Made by a program: the position numbers and the translations under genes. Shown here one piece after another: positions 9,582-28,231 of a stretch of DNA of 64,000 bases. Position 1 is the stretch's first letter, and each line of letters begins with the position of its first letter. This DNA comes from Bacteroidales bacterium (GTDB taxonomy: Bacteria; Bacteroidota; Bacteroidia; Bacteroidales; G3-4614). The notes under the pieces are model-generated. The model made no database searches. It worked only from the letters and a program-made list of their open reading frames with translations, and had not been told where the DNA came from. Where the stretch lies: NCBI GenBank assembly GCA_015061035.1, contig SUXK01000001.1, positions 124,001 through 188,000 on the forward strand. Reading direction: 5' to 3'.

Positions 9582-9851
9582 TTTTTTATATGGTTTGATA
9601 AAGAAACTAAATTGGGATAGTTAAACAGAAATATTATAATTCTATATAAATGTCAATAATATCGTACTATAAAGTGTAATTATATTCCTGAAAATACTTA
9701 CAACATTACATAAACTATACTTTAAAAATTAAAAAATGCTATAAAAATGTATATTATTAACAATTATTAACTATAATGTGAATAAAATATATAAACAACT
9801 ATATATATTTGTGGAAGTTTTTCATAGTATTAGATTTAAGGTTAAATTAAG

Positions 9852-9881
9852 AATGGCAGTCGTTGTGAAACGGCTGCCATT
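9852..9881. terminator. Hairpin, probable terminator of the minus-strand dipeptidase gene
   Basis: AATGGCAG...CTGCCATT stem-loop just 3' of the dipeptidase stop codon. Confidence 0.55.
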
Positions 9882-9913
9882 AACTTTATCAATATAAAAA
9901 ACCAGTAATGGGG

Positions 9914-11419: not shown

Positions 11420-11442
11420 AAGACTGCACATTGTGCAGTCTT
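11420..11442 (-). terminator. Hairpin with T-tract on the minus strand
   Basis: AAGACTGCAC-AAT-GTGCAGTCTT then TTTTTTT on the minus strand. Confidence 0.65.
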
Positions 11443-11456
11443 ATAGTGACCCCGGA

Positions 11457-11545
11457 GGCACGCAAGGCATTTGCAACGCAAATAGGATTGACTAAATGTC
11501 AATCCGTGCCACAGGGTGGGGAGCACAGTGCTATGTGCGACGGGG
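11457..11545 (-). repeat. Structured dispersed repeat, copy A
   Basis: P1 GGCACG/CGTGCC enclosing GGATTGAC-taaat-GTCAATCC and ATTTGC-aac-GCAAAT; outside hairpin GCACA/TGTGC; homologous to copy B and both CRISPR leaders. Confidence 0.75.
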
Positions 11546-11548
11546 GTA

Positions 11549-11600
11549 TACAAAGCATTTACGAAGTAAATAAAATTGACTAAATTTAAGCCCGTACGTT
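11549..11600 (-). repeat. Structured dispersed repeat, truncated/degenerate copy E
   Basis: aaagcATTTACgaaGTAAATaaaattgactaaatttaagcccgta aligns to copy A. Confidence 0.6.
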
Positions 11601-11688
11601 CGAAAAAATCGTTCTAACTAAATATATTTCAATAATTTTAAAGAACAATTTTAAATTTTAATGGGACAGTAGTGATGTTATATATAAA

Positions 11689-11730
11689 CAATTGTGAAGC
11701 AAATTCAACATAGTATTTGCCTCACAATTG
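11689..11730 (-). terminator. Hairpin at 3' end of FN3 lipoprotein gene
   Basis: CAATTGTGAAGCAAAT / ATTTGCCTCACAATTG, 15 of 16 paired. Confidence 0.6.
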
Positions 11731-11746
11731 ATTTTTAATGTAGAAA

Positions 11747-13042
11747 TTATCTTACGACTTTTACATATGAACTAAAATCACTATTTGCTATTCCTAAATA
11801 GCTCAGAGCTTTAGCTTTGACCTTGTAATAGGTCGTGCCTGATAGTGGGTTGCTATCAGTTAGGACATAACGCTTGCTTGCAGTGCTACCTCCAGAAGCT
11901 GAAATTTTTGTATAGCCCGATGAGGCTGACCTACTTCTATAGAGTTCATACTCATATGCCAAAGGAACTTCATCAACTGAAACCTGAACAAAATATGAAG
12001 ACGAATACGCTTCGATATTTTTAGGAGTTTCTAATTTGGATGGATTATCTCCACCTTGATCCCCTCCTGCACTATTAGATTTGTATGTACAATAAACTTT
12101 ACTAGATTTATCACTTTCTTCATAGTTGGAATTTAAGGCTTGAATCCAAAATTGATATGTTCCATCATCCATATAACGATCGAATACTGCCGTGGTTGTC
12201 GGGGCATAGACATTAGTAAAATTTTCTGTTCCATAAGGTGTACTGTACCATAAACGATAATAGTAAGTGTTCGCTACAGAATTCCAAGAAACAACTATTG
12301 ATTCTCCACTTTGAACTGCTTTTAATCCAGTCGGTACAGAAGGTTTCTGAGAGCCACTATTATCTGAGTACTTGCAATACGCATAGTCACTAAACTCACT
12401 CGTAGTTGATCCAATTGCTTTTACTTTATAGTAATTATTAGTAACCAAAACAACTTCATCTATATATCTATTATTTGTCCAATAACCGTAACTACTATAT
12501 GATCCATTTGCTGAACTTGCATGGAAAATTTCATATCTGGAAGCTCCATCTACCGCATCCCAAGTAAGTACAATTGTTTTGCCATTCTGAACCGCTCTGA
12601 CATTAGTAGGTGCTTTAATTTTGTTCTCATTTTCGCCTCCGGGATTGTTGTTGCCACTAACGTATTGGATGTATATTGGAGTAGATGCTGGACTTTGTAT
12701 ATTTAGGGATTTACATGCATAGATGAAATAATAATTATTCCCATCTAATGGATTAGTATCAATGACATTATTATTGTAGATATAGCCACCATCGCCAATG
12801 TAAGATAACATTACTTTTGAACCATTAAGTGAACTTGCGCGGCAAATCATATAGAACTTCGCATCATCTACGGTATTCCAAGATAGTCTAATGCCATTAG
12901 ATACGACGCTTCCAGACACCCCTGTTGGGGCAGTTAATCTAGAGTAATCGGGATAAGGATCTTCTTCACAAGAGGTTAATGTGAATATAATGAACAATGA
13001 AAACAGGATACCCCATAAAACAGATTTATTCATTTTTATCAT
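11747..13042 (-). CDS. Lipoprotein with repeated fibronectin type III domains
   Basis: Lipobox LTSC; four FN3-like units (P-TGVSGSVVSNGIRLSWNTV, APTNVRAVQNGKTIVLTWDAV, etc.). Confidence 0.85.
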   Translation of the reverse strand: MIKMNKSVLWGILFSLFIIFTLTSCEEDPYPDYSRLTAPTGVSGSVVSNGIRLSWNTVDDAKFYMICRASSLNGSKVMLSYIGDGGYIYNNNVIDTNPLDGNNYYFIYACKSLNIQSPASTPIYIQYVSGNNNPGGENENKIKAPTNVRAVQNGKTIVLTWDAVDGASRYEIFHASSANGSYSSYGYWTNNRYIDEVVLVTNNYYKVKAIGSTTSEFSDYAYCKYSDNSGSQKPSVPTGLKAVQSGESIVVSWNSVANTYYYRLWYSTPYGTENFTNVYAPTTTAVFDRYMDDGTYQFWIQALNSNYEESDKSSKVYCTYKSNSAGGDQGGDNPSKLETPKNIEAYSSSYFVQVSVDEVPLAYEYELYRSRSASSGYTKISASGGSTASKRYVLTDSNPLSGTTYYKVKAKALSYLGIANSDFSSYVKVVR

Positions 13043-13083
13043 TTTTATTATTGTTATGTGTTAATACAAAAAAAGTCCTAAGA

Positions 13084-13240
13084 GAGTAAAGTCACAAAAA
13101 AAGCGCGGACAAACTCGGTTTATCTGTATCTGAGGTCTTCGACTACCTACCATCCATCTAAACGAGTAAAGCCCACGCCTATGACGTGAGCATTTTCGCT
13201 TTACTCTTGGATGGTTTGAAATTGTCGAAGTTTCAGATAC
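13084..13240 (-). promoter_or_regulatory. Candidate structured 5' leader / attenuator-like RNA upstream of the FN3 lipoprotein
   Basis: Nested arms GTATCTGA/TCAGATAC, CTTCGAC/GTCGAAG, ACCATCCA/TGGATGGT, GAGTAAAGC/GCTTTACTC; additional downstream GAGTAAAG copy at 13084-13091. Confidence 0.5.
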
Positions 13241-13623
13241 CAGATTATGCAAAAACGCTTTTTCCTATTCTATGGTGCTTAACTTGATAATTAGTCTTTA
13301 TTTCATTAGCATTTGGTGTTAGTTTATAGAGCAAAGGTACAAACTTATTTTGAGATACACAACTTTTACTTTTTTCGTAGAAAAATATAGCATAGAATTC
13401 TGGCGAAGATAAGTGCGATGATTGCAACCGCTGTGCCGTCAGACGAATTATAAAGGTGCTACGAGGCGGTGCTTAGCCGTTAGATAAATCAGATCAGTGT
13501 GCCACGGGGTTAAAGAAACGCACCGCCACCGATTAGTCTGTGTCTTTATTCTTTGAATTTTGACACAGCCTCTTATAGTGACCCCAGAGAAAGGACTCTA
13601 ATTTTTGTGCAACAAAAATCAAC

Positions 13624-13710
13624 GCATTTTAAGGTATTAGCGAAGCAAATAGGATTAACTAAATGTTAATCCGTGCTTTAAAATGGGGAGCATAGTGCTC
13701 TATGCGACGG
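13624..13710 (-). repeat. Structured dispersed repeat, copy B
   Basis: P1 CATTTTAA/TTAAAATG enclosing GGATTAAC-taaat-GTTAATCC and ATTAGC-gaa-GCAAAT; hairpin GCATA/TATGC. Confidence 0.75.
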
Positions 13711-13821
13711 AGTAAAGACGTAGAAAGTGCAAAGCCTTTCGACCGCTATCTGTTAGAGAGTTAACTTTTCAGTGAGAGTCCCGACTACAAAAAAAGAGCA
13801 ACCATTTGGTTGCTCTGTAAG

Positions 13822-13894
13822 TGACCCCGGAGGGACTCGAACCCTCGGCCCAATGATTAAGAGTCATTTGCTCTACCAACTGAGCTACGGAGTC
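13822..13894 (-). tRNA. tRNA-Lys (CTT)
   Basis: Acceptor GACTCCG/CGGGGTC, T-arm GGTTCGAGTCC, anticodon loop CTCTTAA. Confidence 0.95.
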
Positions 13895-23671: not shown

Positions 23672-23924
23672 ATGTCTGAAAGATAGTAATCTCTTTCAAA
23701 TAAATTTTAAATAAACTTTTTGACCGCAAAAAGTTACTTGCCCTCCGTAGTGCAGGGTGCTACACTTCCCATTTTAATATACGGATTAACATTTAGTTAA
23801 TTTTAATAACCTCGTAATTACCTTAAAATGCCCGTCACCCGTATAAAACAGTCATTCACCTTTTTGTTCGGGAGATTTCACTCTGTTTTATAATGGTGCG
23901 GTATTATTTAAAAAATTAGTACTT
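23672..23924 (+). promoter_or_regulatory. CRISPR leader copy 1
   Basis: Homologous to 24308-24558 and immediately precedes repeat 1 of array 1. Confidence 0.75.
23741..23830 (+). repeat. Structured dispersed repeat inside leader 1 (copy L1)
   Basis: P1 CATTTTAA/TTAAAATG enclosing ATTAAC-attta-GTTAAT and TAATAAC-ctc-GTAATTA. Confidence 0.7.
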
Positions 23925-24091
23925 GTTGTTCTACCCCTTCAAATAAGGGGCTTTTACAACGAAAATTTAAGAATTAAAGAATAATAGTTAGTTGTTCTAC
24001 CCCTTCAAATATGGGGCTTCTACAACGAAACTTCCGATTTGTATAAAGAATTAAAGTTGTTCTGCCATTTCAAGAAAATGGTTTCCACAAC
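23925..24091 (+). CRISPR. CRISPR array 1 (short, decayed): 3 repeats, 2 spacers
   Basis: 36-nt repeats at 23925-23960, 23991-24026, 24056-24091; spacers of 30 and 29 nt; third repeat strongly diverged but stem-compensated. Confidence 0.88.
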
Positions 24092-24307
24092 ACTTCTTCC
24101 AAAACATTACCTTCCAATTTATTAATATAATTCATTCCATATAATATGGAATTTCAGTAGCAAAAGTAATAAAGATATATGAATCTTTAAAGATATGCTT
24201 CTGTAAAATACTCTTCATATAGTAATTCCCTTAGCGCATAATCCTTTAAAACTTATCCTATCAAGTAGGGACGTGGCCTGCCACGTCCGCCATTATCATA
24301 AGAGAAA

Positions 24308-24558
24308 ATGTCTGAAAGACTATAATCTCTTTTAAATAAATTTTTAATAAACTTTTTGACCGCAAAAAGTTACTTGCCCTATGTCGCACAGAGTACTGTG
24401 CTTCTCGTTTTAAGGCACAAACTAACATTAGTTAATTTTAATTACCTTGTAATTACCTTAAAATGCCCGTCACCCGTATAAAACAGTCATTCACCTTTTT
24501 GTTCGGGAGTTTTCACTCTGTTTTATAATGGTGCGGTATTATTTGAAAGTTAGTTCAT
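24308..24558 (+). promoter_or_regulatory. CRISPR leader copy 2
   Basis: Homologous to leader 1, including the TATAAAACAG...CTGTTTTATA inverted repeat (24477-24486/24518-24527). Confidence 0.8.
24380..24465 (+). repeat. Structured dispersed repeat inside leader 2 (copy L2)
   Basis: Hairpin GCACA/TGTGC; P1 CGTTTTAAGG/CCTTAAAATG; hairpin TAATTAC-ctt-GTAATTA. Confidence 0.7.
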
Positions 24559-24988
24559 GTTGTTCTACCTCTTCAAACAAGGGGCTTCTACAACTCAAGA
24601 TGAAAGGCGATGCTTCGGCAGAGGTTGTCATACCCCATCAAATAAGGGGCTTCTACAACCACAGCGCATGGGTGTATTGCTACAACGTGTTGTTCTACCC
24701 CATCAAATAAGGGGCTTCTACAACCTTCCAGAGGAAGAGAAATTAGCATATATAGTTGTTCTACCCCTTCAAATAAGGGGCTTCTACAACATAAAGCAGG
24801 AATAGAAGTTCAACAAATTCGTTGTTCTACCCCATCAAATAAGAGGCTTCTACAACTGGAGAAGTTGTACGAAAGTTTGGGAGTAAGTTGTCATACCCCT
24901 TCAAATAAGGGGCTTCTACAACAAAAAAAGCGTAGCAGTAAGTCTTTATTAAGTTGTCATACCCCTTCAAATAAGGGGCTTCTACAAC
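24559..24988 (+). CRISPR. CRISPR array 2: 7 repeats (36 nt, consensus GTTGTTCTACCCCTTCAAATAAGGGGCTTCTACAAC), 6 spacers of 29-30 nt; type VI-B-like
   Basis: Repeats at 24559, 24624, 24689, 24755, 24821, 24887, 24953; GTTG...CAAC ends as in Cas13b direct repeats. Confidence 0.98.
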
Positions 24989-25001
24989 GTGGTGTTAATA
25001 G

Positions 25002-25020: not shown

Positions 25021-25057
25021 TTATGATGTAATTTGCTTTAAAAATACTATTTATATT

Positions 25058-28000
25058 CTAATTTGTTAGTTTCTTTGACTCTTTTTCTAATATATCTTTA
25101 AGTGATTCTGCTACTTCGGGCATATTGTCGTAGTTAACATCTTTTATTGTTGGGTAGTAGTTATGCGAGAAGGCATTTCTTATTAATCGTAAAATCTTTT
25201 TTTCTCCCTCTTCCATTTTAATGACATTTAATACATCCCCAAAGGTTATATGTTCAAGGTCTTTTAATTCTTTGTGCTTTTCTACAACTATTTTTTCAAT
25301 CATAAGAAGAGTTTCAAATACTTTGGGTCGAGAGCCATCGTAGTTGCTTAACTCATCTTCAAGAATATTCCTGTCAATTTCAACTTTTGTTCCATTGCTA
25401 AGCAACGAATCAATACGTAGGTCAAATATAAATTTTAAGAAATCGCCGTAGTTCTTTATCTTCAAATATTGTTGTTTAATGGTAAATTTCTTTCCCTCTT
25501 TTAGTGTTATTGTTGTCTTAAATTCTGGCATCTTATAATCAAAGAAGTTACTATTCTTGCCGTCAGTAATCATACTGAGTTTATAGCCAAAATCTTCTCT
25601 CATAATACCTTTTATAATGTCACATGCGAGTAGATACAAAAGCATATCTTGTACTTTGTAGCGTCTTAATATGCGTTCGTTATTATCCATTTTGCGATAT
25701 AGTGAGTTGAATTTCTCTTCAGTATCTCTATCCTTTATGGTATTTTTATTCTCGCCTTTATTATATCTCCTATTTCCTCTTCTATTCTCATTCTCTTTTT
25801 CCCTCTCTCTCTTCTTGAAACTATTGAGGGCATCGCTCTTGGCGATTGCTTCGCGTTCTGTTAGTGATAAATATTTATCTTTTTCGCTTAAACAAGAGTA
25901 GTGGCGTGGTAAACTATAAAATTGTTGACTATCATCTTTGAGAACATCTTGCATATATCTTGCAATAAGATATGTAACATTGCATTGCTCTTGTGCTATA
26001 ACATCTTCTAATATTGATTTACTTTTTAGATACTCTTTTATTGCTCTATCATATAATCCTCTTGGTAACTCAATGGGTTGGGTGGCATATCTTTGGGCAA
26101 GTTCTTTAAAGAACTTCTCATCTCTCTTTTCCCAGCGTTTGCGTTCAGTGTGTATAAAGGGGATAGTGGCTAAATCCATCTTCTTTATACATTTATCCAA
26201 ATATTCTCCTCTCAACTCAAGGTATATTTTATAAAAGGCAATAATATCTTTAGGCTCTTCTCCTAATACATATTCAAGGAATGGATGATTGTCTGATTCA
26301 TTTTTCCAATAACAAGCCTTTATGTTATCAAACATGTCATCCACCTCATCTAATGTTGAGCCTGATTCACTGCCGTTAAATGTTGCAAGTAGTGCTTGCA
26401 TTACATTATAGTTTTTGCTTGTTGGTTTATATTTTGCCTTGGGCATAAACATAACAATATCTTTTGCTAAGTACTGAGCCAACTCTCCTGTTCTTATCTC
26501 GGTATAGTCGCGTTTGCCATATTTAACTTCGCCATCTTCAATCTTTTTAAGTTTGCTATTAAACTGCTCCAAGCGTATTCTGTTCTCCTCTATCATCTCT
26601 CTGATTTGGGCTTTGGCATATTGCTCAATACCATCTCTCTCTGTTCCATTAAAGTAATCTTGTAGTTCGCGTGGGATGTCGCTCTTTTCAATGCCATACT
26701 CTTTGCTTATCATCTCAAAGTCACTTGTGGCATTGCCTGTTCTTGCAACTTTGCCTTCAGCAATGTCGTTAAATAGTTTTTTGTATCTCTCAACGCAATC
26801 TATTATAATCTTTTCGGTAAGACTCTTTTTCTCATCTTTAGTTAAAATGTGGTGGAAAATAAGAGCGGGTAACTCATAATTACTAATCCAGCAAATTGGT
26901 TGAATACAGTGTGCTCCACTCTCAATATCGGGGATGTATGCTCCATTGCGCATTGCTTTGCCGTGTGCTGAGTTAAAATATATACCTATTCTATTTCCGT
27001 TAAACAGATATTGGGGGTATTGATCGGTAATGTAGGGTTTTGTCTCTGCAGTATCAATCTTGGCATCTTCAAATTTTCTTATTAGTCCTCCCCACTTCTC
27101 CTCTTTTAATAACTCAATCTCGTTAATTCTTCCAAAACCGTTTAACTCCTTCTGTAAAATTCTTACGTGGGTATCTCCGTCAACACAGGTTTTGTCATAG
27201 AATTTATATCTGTATTTACCTAACGATAGTTGAAAACGAATCTTCTCAAAAACTTTTCTGTTGTCGATGTATTGTAGTGCAAGAGTTGCAAATCGGTCGC
27301 TATGTCTCATTAGTAAAACCTCCTCGCCAGTTGTCTCTGATTTAGTTCTAAATCTTTTTTGCTCCTCTTTAGAGATGATTTCAAAAAGTTCTTTTGGGCA
27401 TTTTCCTAACTCGTTGAACATATCCATAGCAATAGTTATCTCGTTGCGTTCAACATCCATACGTCCACGAGGCAGTACTATTCTGTGGGCGCTAAATACC
27501 TCTCTAATGTATTTGCATTGTGCAGGAGTGAAGTCAAAATAGATATCTCTTCCCATGTAGCCTTGTTGGTCGAACAGCATAGATGCATATTTTTTCTCAA
27601 TAAGTTGGCATGCCAAAAATATCAATCCCATTTTGTTTAATCTTTCATTCTTGTCTTGAAGTGAGTATATGAAATTGGGATTTAATTTGGTACTCCTCTT
27701 GCCATCTATAGTCTGTGTGCGATACCTACCTTTGGTTAAGAATTCTAACTCGGTGGATAATCCAAAACGCTCTTTAATAACACGAGCCGATGCTGTGAAT
27801 ATTTGGTTAAGGTCATTCGCAACACTCATCTCTGCGTTTAGAAACTCCTTGTTTTCGTGTCGTTTGTCAATAAATACGTAATGGGTAAACTTGTCACGAT
27901 AGTAGGTAATAACTTTGGCCCAATTTTTAATAACCTTTGCCAATAACTCTGGGCTCTTTACGTTCTCTTTGCTCTTCTTACGCAAATCCTCAACGGCAGG

Positions 28001-28231
28001 TCTAAAAAGGGGTAAATGCTTATATATGAGTTTTTCAATACGAATCTTCTCCTCGGGATGACCTTTTGTAGTTAATACCCTAAGGAGTTGCATGTCTTCT
28101 ATTTTGCTCTCTTTGTTGTCTTCTCCCTCTTGAATTCCAGAGATTTTTGAGATGTAACATAGCGTTTCGTACATGTTGTGGCGAGCCATATTGTAGTACG
28201 CCGCAAAGTGTGATTGTTCTTTAATTGTCAT
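25058..28231 (-). CDS. cas13b: Cas13b-like type VI-B CRISPR RNA-guided RNase (1057 aa)
   Basis: RxxxxH HEPN motifs near both termini (YYRDKFTHY at R112-H117; IRNAFSHNYYP at R1018-H1023); large single effector next to a VI-B-like array. Confidence 0.93.
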   Translation of the reverse strand: MTIKEQSHFAAYYNMARHNMYETLCYISKISGIQEGEDNKESKIEDMQLLRVLTTKGHPEEKIRIEKLIYKHLPLFRPAVEDLRKKSKENVKSPELLAKVIKNWAKVITYYRDKFTHYVFIDKRHENKEFLNAEMSVANDLNQIFTASARVIKERFGLSTELEFLTKGRYRTQTIDGKRSTKLNPNFIYSLQDKNERLNKMGLIFLACQLIEKKYASMLFDQQGYMGRDIYFDFTPAQCKYIREVFSAHRIVLPRGRMDVERNEITIAMDMFNELGKCPKELFEIISKEEQKRFRTKSETTGEEVLLMRHSDRFATLALQYIDNRKVFEKIRFQLSLGKYRYKFYDKTCVDGDTHVRILQKELNGFGRINEIELLKEEKWGGLIRKFEDAKIDTAETKPYITDQYPQYLFNGNRIGIYFNSAHGKAMRNGAYIPDIESGAHCIQPICWISNYELPALIFHHILTKDEKKSLTEKIIIDCVERYKKLFNDIAEGKVARTGNATSDFEMISKEYGIEKSDIPRELQDYFNGTERDGIEQYAKAQIREMIEENRIRLEQFNSKLKKIEDGEVKYGKRDYTEIRTGELAQYLAKDIVMFMPKAKYKPTSKNYNVMQALLATFNGSESGSTLDEVDDMFDNIKACYWKNESDNHPFLEYVLGEEPKDIIAFYKIYLELRGEYLDKCIKKMDLATIPFIHTERKRWEKRDEKFFKELAQRYATQPIELPRGLYDRAIKEYLKSKSILEDVIAQEQCNVTYLIARYMQDVLKDDSQQFYSLPRHYSCLSEKDKYLSLTEREAIAKSDALNSFKKREREKENENRRGNRRYNKGENKNTIKDRDTEEKFNSLYRKMDNNERILRRYKVQDMLLYLLACDIIKGIMREDFGYKLSMITDGKNSNFFDYKMPEFKTTITLKEGKKFTIKQQYLKIKNYGDFLKFIFDLRIDSLLSNGTKVEIDRNILEDELSNYDGSRPKVFETLLMIEKIVVEKHKELKDLEHITFGDVLNVIKMEEGEKKILRLIRNAFSHNYYPTIKDVNYDNMPEVAESLKDILEKESKKLTN

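Follow-up and report, generated by a model that had tools for sequence, protein, structure and literature searches.

Two CRISPR arrays beside a Cas13b gene carry the same hairpin-rich element in their leaders, which raises the question of whether that element is a working part of the CRISPR system or something that has settled there from elsewhere. The locus lies in a window of 64,000 nt (C4:124001-188000 of G000, an uncultured Bacteroidales genome of 1.92 Mb), 'the window' being the whole stretch of DNA that was analysed. A sequence-only reading of the window had described four segments and a truncated copy, proposed that they were either a structured RNA or hairpin-mobilised DNA, and tied them to CRISPR transcription, processing or mobility. 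The element is an 89-nt unit with three hairpins and belongs to a hitherto undescribed family of short hairpin repeats scattered through the genomes of gut Bacteroidales. It is probably a non-autonomous mobile DNA of the REP/BIME kind, carried as a passenger in the Cas13b leaders.

Anatomy, number and range of the unit

Four copies and one truncated copy lie in the window:

23743 to 23831, + strand: unit copy in the leader of CRISPR array 1, decayed, HP1 of GTGCA subtype; 86.5 bits, E 6e-19; RNA fold z -0.62
24379 to 24466, + strand: unit copy in the leader of CRISPR array 2, HP1 of GCACA subtype; 89.3 bits, E 1e-19; RNA fold z -4.19
13624 to 13712, - strand: unit copy downstream of tRNA-Lys, the best preserved in the window; 105.4 bits, E 1.5e-23; site empty in G004 and G006
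11458 to 11545, - strand: unit copy with P1 subtype CACCC/GCGTG, beside a duplicate of the tRNA-Lys 3' end with terminator; 80.0 bits, E 2e-17; same layout by tRNA-Lys in G005
11552 to 11600, - strand: truncated unit copy without HP1; 18.4 bits over positions 34-82; a fuller copy at this place in G005

Scores come from a covariance model (R1) of 19 copies, which include 23743-23831 and 13624-13712, so that the scores of these two are not independent. The unit reads CTCCGTCG..AAATGC and opens with a CGTC-tagged hairpin, HP1, of 6 bp with a 4-nt loop (GCACAG-AGCA-CTGTGC). The HP1 stem begins with G-C followed by C-G or T-A, its loop is AGCA or GGCA in most copies, and its unpaired foot (C4 G5 T6 C7) is kept in at least 90% of 51 copies gathered without requiring CGTC. 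A TCCCC tail after HP1 runs into stem P1, which encloses hairpins H2, with a loop (CATTTAG) conserved across copies, and H3.

This is the architecture that the sequence-only reading had drawn, a 5' hairpin followed by P1 around two hairpins, and the model recovers its four copies (E 2e-17 to 1e-23) as well as its fragment. For the 11.5-kb copy, however, the P1 it gave (GGCACG/CGTGCC) is a subtype-specific alternative pairing, and CACCC/GCGTG is what aligns with the P1 of the family. The dispersal it saw is real, but a count of four was far too low: blastn with one copy as query finds 19 places in G000, and the covariance model, a step which that reading had itself proposed, gives 25 matches at E<1e-4 there. 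At E<=1 the same model finds 11-24 matches per carrier congener (15 in G001, 24 in G003, 17 in G004, 11 in G005 and 23 in G006), and in this search the unit is absent from G002 and G007, both of which are 99% complete.

Beyond the genus the picture depends on the stringency of the pattern. A strict HP1 pattern in 395 sampled genomes of the order hits this genus only, in 4 genomes; a degenerate one, applied to one genome per GTDB species, finds 75 stretches, all in uncultured Bacteroidales MAGs and mostly from ruminant hindgut. In other genera HP1 and H2 are unchanged, P1 is different and there is little or no H3 (e.g. CCGTCGCACAGAGCACTGTGCTCCCC-TCGCTACGGCACGAATTGACATTTAGTCAATTCTC..GGCCTTGCTACGCC). 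The viral contigs, phages and plasmid records searched hold no unit copies, so carriage by phage or plasmid is not supported. In the parts of the literature consulted, with structured-RNA candidates from the human microbiome (PMC8040213) left aside, there was no Bacteroidales REP, BIME or MITE of this kind.

Insertion sites, stem covariation and the search for an enzyme

Evidence that the unit moves comes firstly from identical copies in different surroundings. Two copies 794 bp apart on C3 of G000 are identical over 89 nt and have unrelated flanks (30/65 and 30/62); one lies inside a GTAG-tagged palindrome, the other inside a second dispersed repeat, R245, of about 245 nt. Some other identical copies, which share their flanks, may be segmental duplications. 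Secondly, insertion is polymorphic between relatives. The 3' end of yebC is filled in G004 and empty in G001, G002, G003, G005, G006 and G007, the insertion turning the protein end E-D-stop into E-A-F-stop with the stop codon inside the unit. The 13624-13712 copy, downstream of tRNA-Lys, occupies its site in G000 and G001; in G004 and G006 that site is empty, with CTCCGTTAGTTC abutting GTTGATTTTTG. G007 has no unit copies downstream of tRNA-Lys.

Thirdly, units lie inside other palindromes. GTAG-tagged palindromes are filled by the unit at L004, L014, L015 and L037; at L004 empty tandem copies of the same palindrome stand alongside the filled one, and in the fold of L014 the flanking arms pair around the unit. 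A unit can also sit inside the HP1 of another unit (L002, L006, L010, L038, L043, L051 and L053). Across the genus the complementarity of the flanks averages 5.32 against 4.76 when permuted, above 200 of 200 permutations, for loci that are not fully independent, and 9.2% of sites score at least 8, compared with 1.9% of random positions. Other genera, in which the end points are not reliably defined, give no such excess (4.48 vs 4.60). Clearly palindromic sites make up only about a third. Filled and empty sites reveal no consistent target duplication; at the left edge 5-8 nt are replaced at the R245 and tRNA-Lys sites. Identical copies in unrelated flanks, empty sites in relatives and nesting in palindromes together support hairpin-mobilised DNA, the second of the two options that the sequence-only reading had left side by side. 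Two features of the window belong here:

24265 to 24290, no strand: GTAG-tagged palindrome GTAGGGACGTGGCCTGCCACGTCCGC, empty here but often targeted by the unit elsewhere (filled examples L004, L014, L015, L037)
13821 to 13894, - strand: tRNA-Lys(CTT); duplicates of its 3' end and terminator surround unit copies

Downstream of this tRNA gene (11430-13894; orthologous L218-L223) lie one or more duplicates of its 3' end and terminator, separated by units, a layout that repeated integration at the tRNA could have produced. Insertions at the 3' ends of genes provide a new stop codon (..GCA TTT TAA or GGC ATT TAA) and alter the last residues, as in L211 (yebC), L035 (a surface-antigen-like gene) and L039 (a Mg-chelatase-like gene).

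Naive ORF calls place none of 65 distinct genus sites inside an ORF. By the same calls, sites with both neighbours called are convergent in 22 cases, tandem in 18 and divergent in 3, figures that stand without a genome-wide baseline, and the orientation of the unit equals that of the adjacent gene in 15 of 35, so that neither orientation is preferred. As copies lie mostly 3' of genes, many are probably transcribed by read-through.

The stems of the unit covary. In an alignment of 19 sequences 96.8% of stem cells pair and 12 of 31 pairs show double changes; no shuffle of the alignment attains this pairing, and slid controls reach at most 44% with at most 2 double-change pairs. An R-scape-like test was run on 54 distinct genus copies aligned to the model, with a FastTree tree and 40 null alignments in which the inferred substitutions were re-placed on the tree. 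Seven structure pairs reach E<=0.05 and represent all four helices (HP1 9-22 and 10-21; P1 30-86; H2 41-61 and 46-56; H3 64-76 and 67-73), against two non-structure pairs, both between neighbouring HP1 columns. P1 subtypes swap wholesale (CATTT/AAATG, CATAC/GTATG, CACGC/GCGTG, CAGAC/GTCTG, CAATC/GATTG). The covarying stems proposed from four copies are thus borne out by the family, with one correction: P1 covaries across the family but not between the two leaders, since their P1 3' arms are identical.

Covariation alone cannot tell selection on DNA from selection on RNA. The unit might instead be a structured RNA, either an sRNA or a 3'-UTR or leader element, whose copies act on transcripts in trans or in cis. 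The four significantly covarying helices, the conserved H2 loop, the read-through transcription expected of many copies downstream of genes and the predicted RNA folds of intact copies, far better than those of shuffles (z about -4), are all consistent with such a role. Wobble pairs, however, are rare and nearly symmetric, with G-T in 24 of 1362 stem cells (1.8%) and A-C in 11 of 1362 (0.8%), which would fit hairpin DNA better than a dedicated RNA. The random orientation to adjacent genes, the identical units in unrelated contexts and the complete absence of the unit from two of the eight congeners also count against an RNA role. A described structured RNA was rejected because the Rfam 15 comparison, which the sequence-only reading had likewise suggested, gave the unit no match above gathering score; the window and five loci with diverse copies were compared, and the relaxed threshold gave none either. 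A structured RNA is accordingly unlikely. A separate stretch of the window, 9811-9890 (+), matches BTncRNA_FopS (RF04319), a Bacteroidetes family of paralogous sRNAs, at 60.4 bits and is unrelated to the unit.

The search for an enzyme that moves the unit found none linked to it. A Y1_Tnp gene occurs in one of eight congeners, unlinked to the unit (the MAGs are incomplete), and in 9 of 19 other carriers; no Y1_Tnp gene found in either set has a unit copy in its flanks, and a Y1 transposase as linked mobiliser was rejected on that ground. The only Y1 gene in the genus, L045 (G006:C1:4541-4882), has the IS200-like Y...NQKEHH motif of TnpA subclass 1.2, and its contig region holds no repeat units. 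TnpA_REP was not found in the genus. Subclass-2.6-like TnpA_REP genes (NHLH, YIH[QN]NP) are present in four other carrier genomes and are not flanked by the unit. Mobilisation by a RAYT, as in REPs and REPINs, was dismissed both for want of a unit-flanked TnpA_REP and on the foot of HP1, which is CGTC rather than GTAG or GGAG (GTAG marks the target palindromes). The IS110 transposase (PF02371) is absent from all eight congeners, with control genomes positive, which speaks against an IS110-derived element.

These searches bear on another proposed origin: the unit could be a classical DDE transposon's MITE, or else have arisen by deletion from IS200/IS605 or IS110. It is dispersed, small, non-coding and mobile, as MITEs of Porphyromonas and other Bacteroidales are small non-coding interspersed repeats, and the absence of target duplication would fit IS200/IS605 and IS110. 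A classical MITE was nonetheless set aside, as the unit lacks terminal inverted repeats (its ends, CTCCGTCG and AAATGC, are not complementary) and makes no consistent target duplication. With IS110 missing and the single Y1 gene IS200-like and without copies nearby, this origin is most improbable.

Non-autonomous mobile DNA thus remains the preferred account. The unit would act as DNA, its single-stranded or cruciform-extruded form most likely being recognised through the hairpins, and would reach new intergenic sites by copying or pasting, in many cases at the centre of another palindrome and with no consistent target duplication. Selection on the shape of the hairpins, for mobilisation or persistence, would then account for the compensatory changes, and the mobilising enzyme may be supplied in trans or may since have been lost. 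It is possible, if on the doubtful side, that the unit is the first well-delimited multi-hairpin CGTC-tagged mobile DNA, inserting whole into hairpin centres by a single-strand mechanism with an enzyme that is neither Y1/HUH nor IS110, and that such insertions and recombination give rise to new regulatory spacers, with CRISPR leaders and gene stop codons as examples.

The Cas13b leaders

The features of the locus are as follows:

25058 to 28231, - strand: cas13b, type VI-B effector (NF038190, 627 bits; PDB PspCas13b match)
23925 to 24091, + strand: CRISPR array 1, three repeats, the last degenerate
24559 to 24989, + strand: CRISPR array 2, 36-bp repeats GTTGTTCTACCCCTTCAAATAAGGGGCTTCTACAAC
23712 to 23737, + strand: R245 left end hosting the unit, leader 1; 100% match to R245 positions 1-26
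23825 to 23912, + strand: R245 remainder, leader 1, near array 1; about 110 nt are missing between TTCGGG direct repeats
24348 to 24373, + strand: R245 left end, leader 2
24460 to 24555, + strand: R245 remainder, leader 2, directly against array 2; internal deletion as in leader 1

Both arrays have 36-bp repeats. The Cas13b profile match continues about 7 codons beyond the TAG stop of the ORF (25037-25060, -), which suggests a slightly shortened Cas13b C-terminus.

The sequence upstream of both arrays is R245. It makes up most of both leaders (23712-23912 and 24348-24555), to about 20 nt before the first repeat, and has a long stem of its own (CCG.CACC..TATAAAACAG/CTGTTTTATAA..GGTG.CGG). Full or nearly full R245 lies at C3:24.1, 37.6 and 45.0 kb, C4:262.3 kb, C7:29.8 kb and C9:289.6 kb (L170-L175). 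Full and partial matches number 15 in G000 and 23 in G003, with others in G005 and G006; no Cas13b turned up in G003, G005 or G006. At C3:37.1 kb R245 carries the unit with no CRISPR. In both leaders R245 has the identical loss of about 110 nt between TTCGGG repeats and holds the unit at the same point, so the leaders are two copies of one assemblage. The 45 nt upstream hardly differ between them, and identity is 94% over the R245 part against 63% over the 5' half of the unit; this low value, together with the different HP1 subtypes, suggests recombination with other copies. A unit copy would have inserted into R245, and the assemblage, upstream of an array, would have been duplicated with it, so that the unit is most simply taken as a passenger in the leaders.

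Nor does the wider distribution of the unit follow CRISPR. About 23 of the 25 copies in G000 lie outside the leaders, and the seven congeners, five of them carriers of the unit, yielded no Cas13b; every copy in those five lies away from Cas13b. The link to CRISPR transcription, processing or mobility drawn from the presence of the unit in both leaders therefore finds no support: the leaders are one duplicated assemblage that is also found without CRISPR, and the leader copies show decay. A working role for the unit within the Cas13b leader, in crRNA transcription, processing or spacer acquisition, is hardly credible: both leaders do carry it, with matching orientation and about 95 nt before the first repeat, and Cas13b arrays are known to be regulated by leader-repeat RNA hairpins (Migur et al. 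2026, PMC13187072), yet that common position is explained by duplication, the unit's 5' half is the most divergent part, the array-1 copy folds no better than shuffles, and in minimum-energy folds, the only ones considered, the first repeat of both arrays pairs with itself and not with the unit. The described hairpin shares with the unit a place in the leader of a type VI-B array, but it pairs the leader with the first repeat, whereas the unit folds on itself. Its place beside the two Cas13b arrays looks accidental, a warning that covariation and a CRISPR-adjacent position can together mimic a leader RNA element.

Comparison with known systems

As mobile DNA, the unit invites comparison with BIME and REPIN mosaics, which are likewise hairpin mosaics copied round the genome, nested and recombining. 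In Bacteroidetes, TnpA_REP genes of subclass 2.6 are flanked by 'atypical secondary structures' (PMC6006769), so multi-hairpin repeats have a precedent in one subclass there. Those mosaics differ in being driven by a RAYT/TnpA_REP, a gene not found in this genus.

The CGTC-tagged REPs offer a further comparison (Di Nocera et al. 2013, PMC3733652): Bacteroidetes are among the groups that have them, they have no known transposase of their own, and some are located within palindromes. They share with the unit CGTC directly 5' of a short hairpin, a 4-nt loop (the families CGTC-1 to 4 allow loops of 4-5 nt, and TGTC or CCTC as well at the unpaired foot), the lack of a linked transposase and the same intergenic distribution, with REPs rarely found in divergent spaces. 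The four families, however, have stems of 8-9 bp starting with AT, a CCA tail and mainly head-to-head dimers, whereas the unit has a 6-bp stem starting with GC or GT, a TCCCC tail and a fixed length of 89 nt in which one CGTC hairpin is joined to P1, H2 and H3. On stem length, AT start, tail and dimer arrangement it is therefore not filed in any of them. The REP literature leaves open how CGTC-tagged palindromes spread (PMC3733652), and a family delimited to the base, polymorphic between close relatives, with empty sites and confined to a few related lineages, makes that question testable. The nearest known kind is REP/BIME: the unit works like the CGTC REPs, but is a larger, three-hairpin form.
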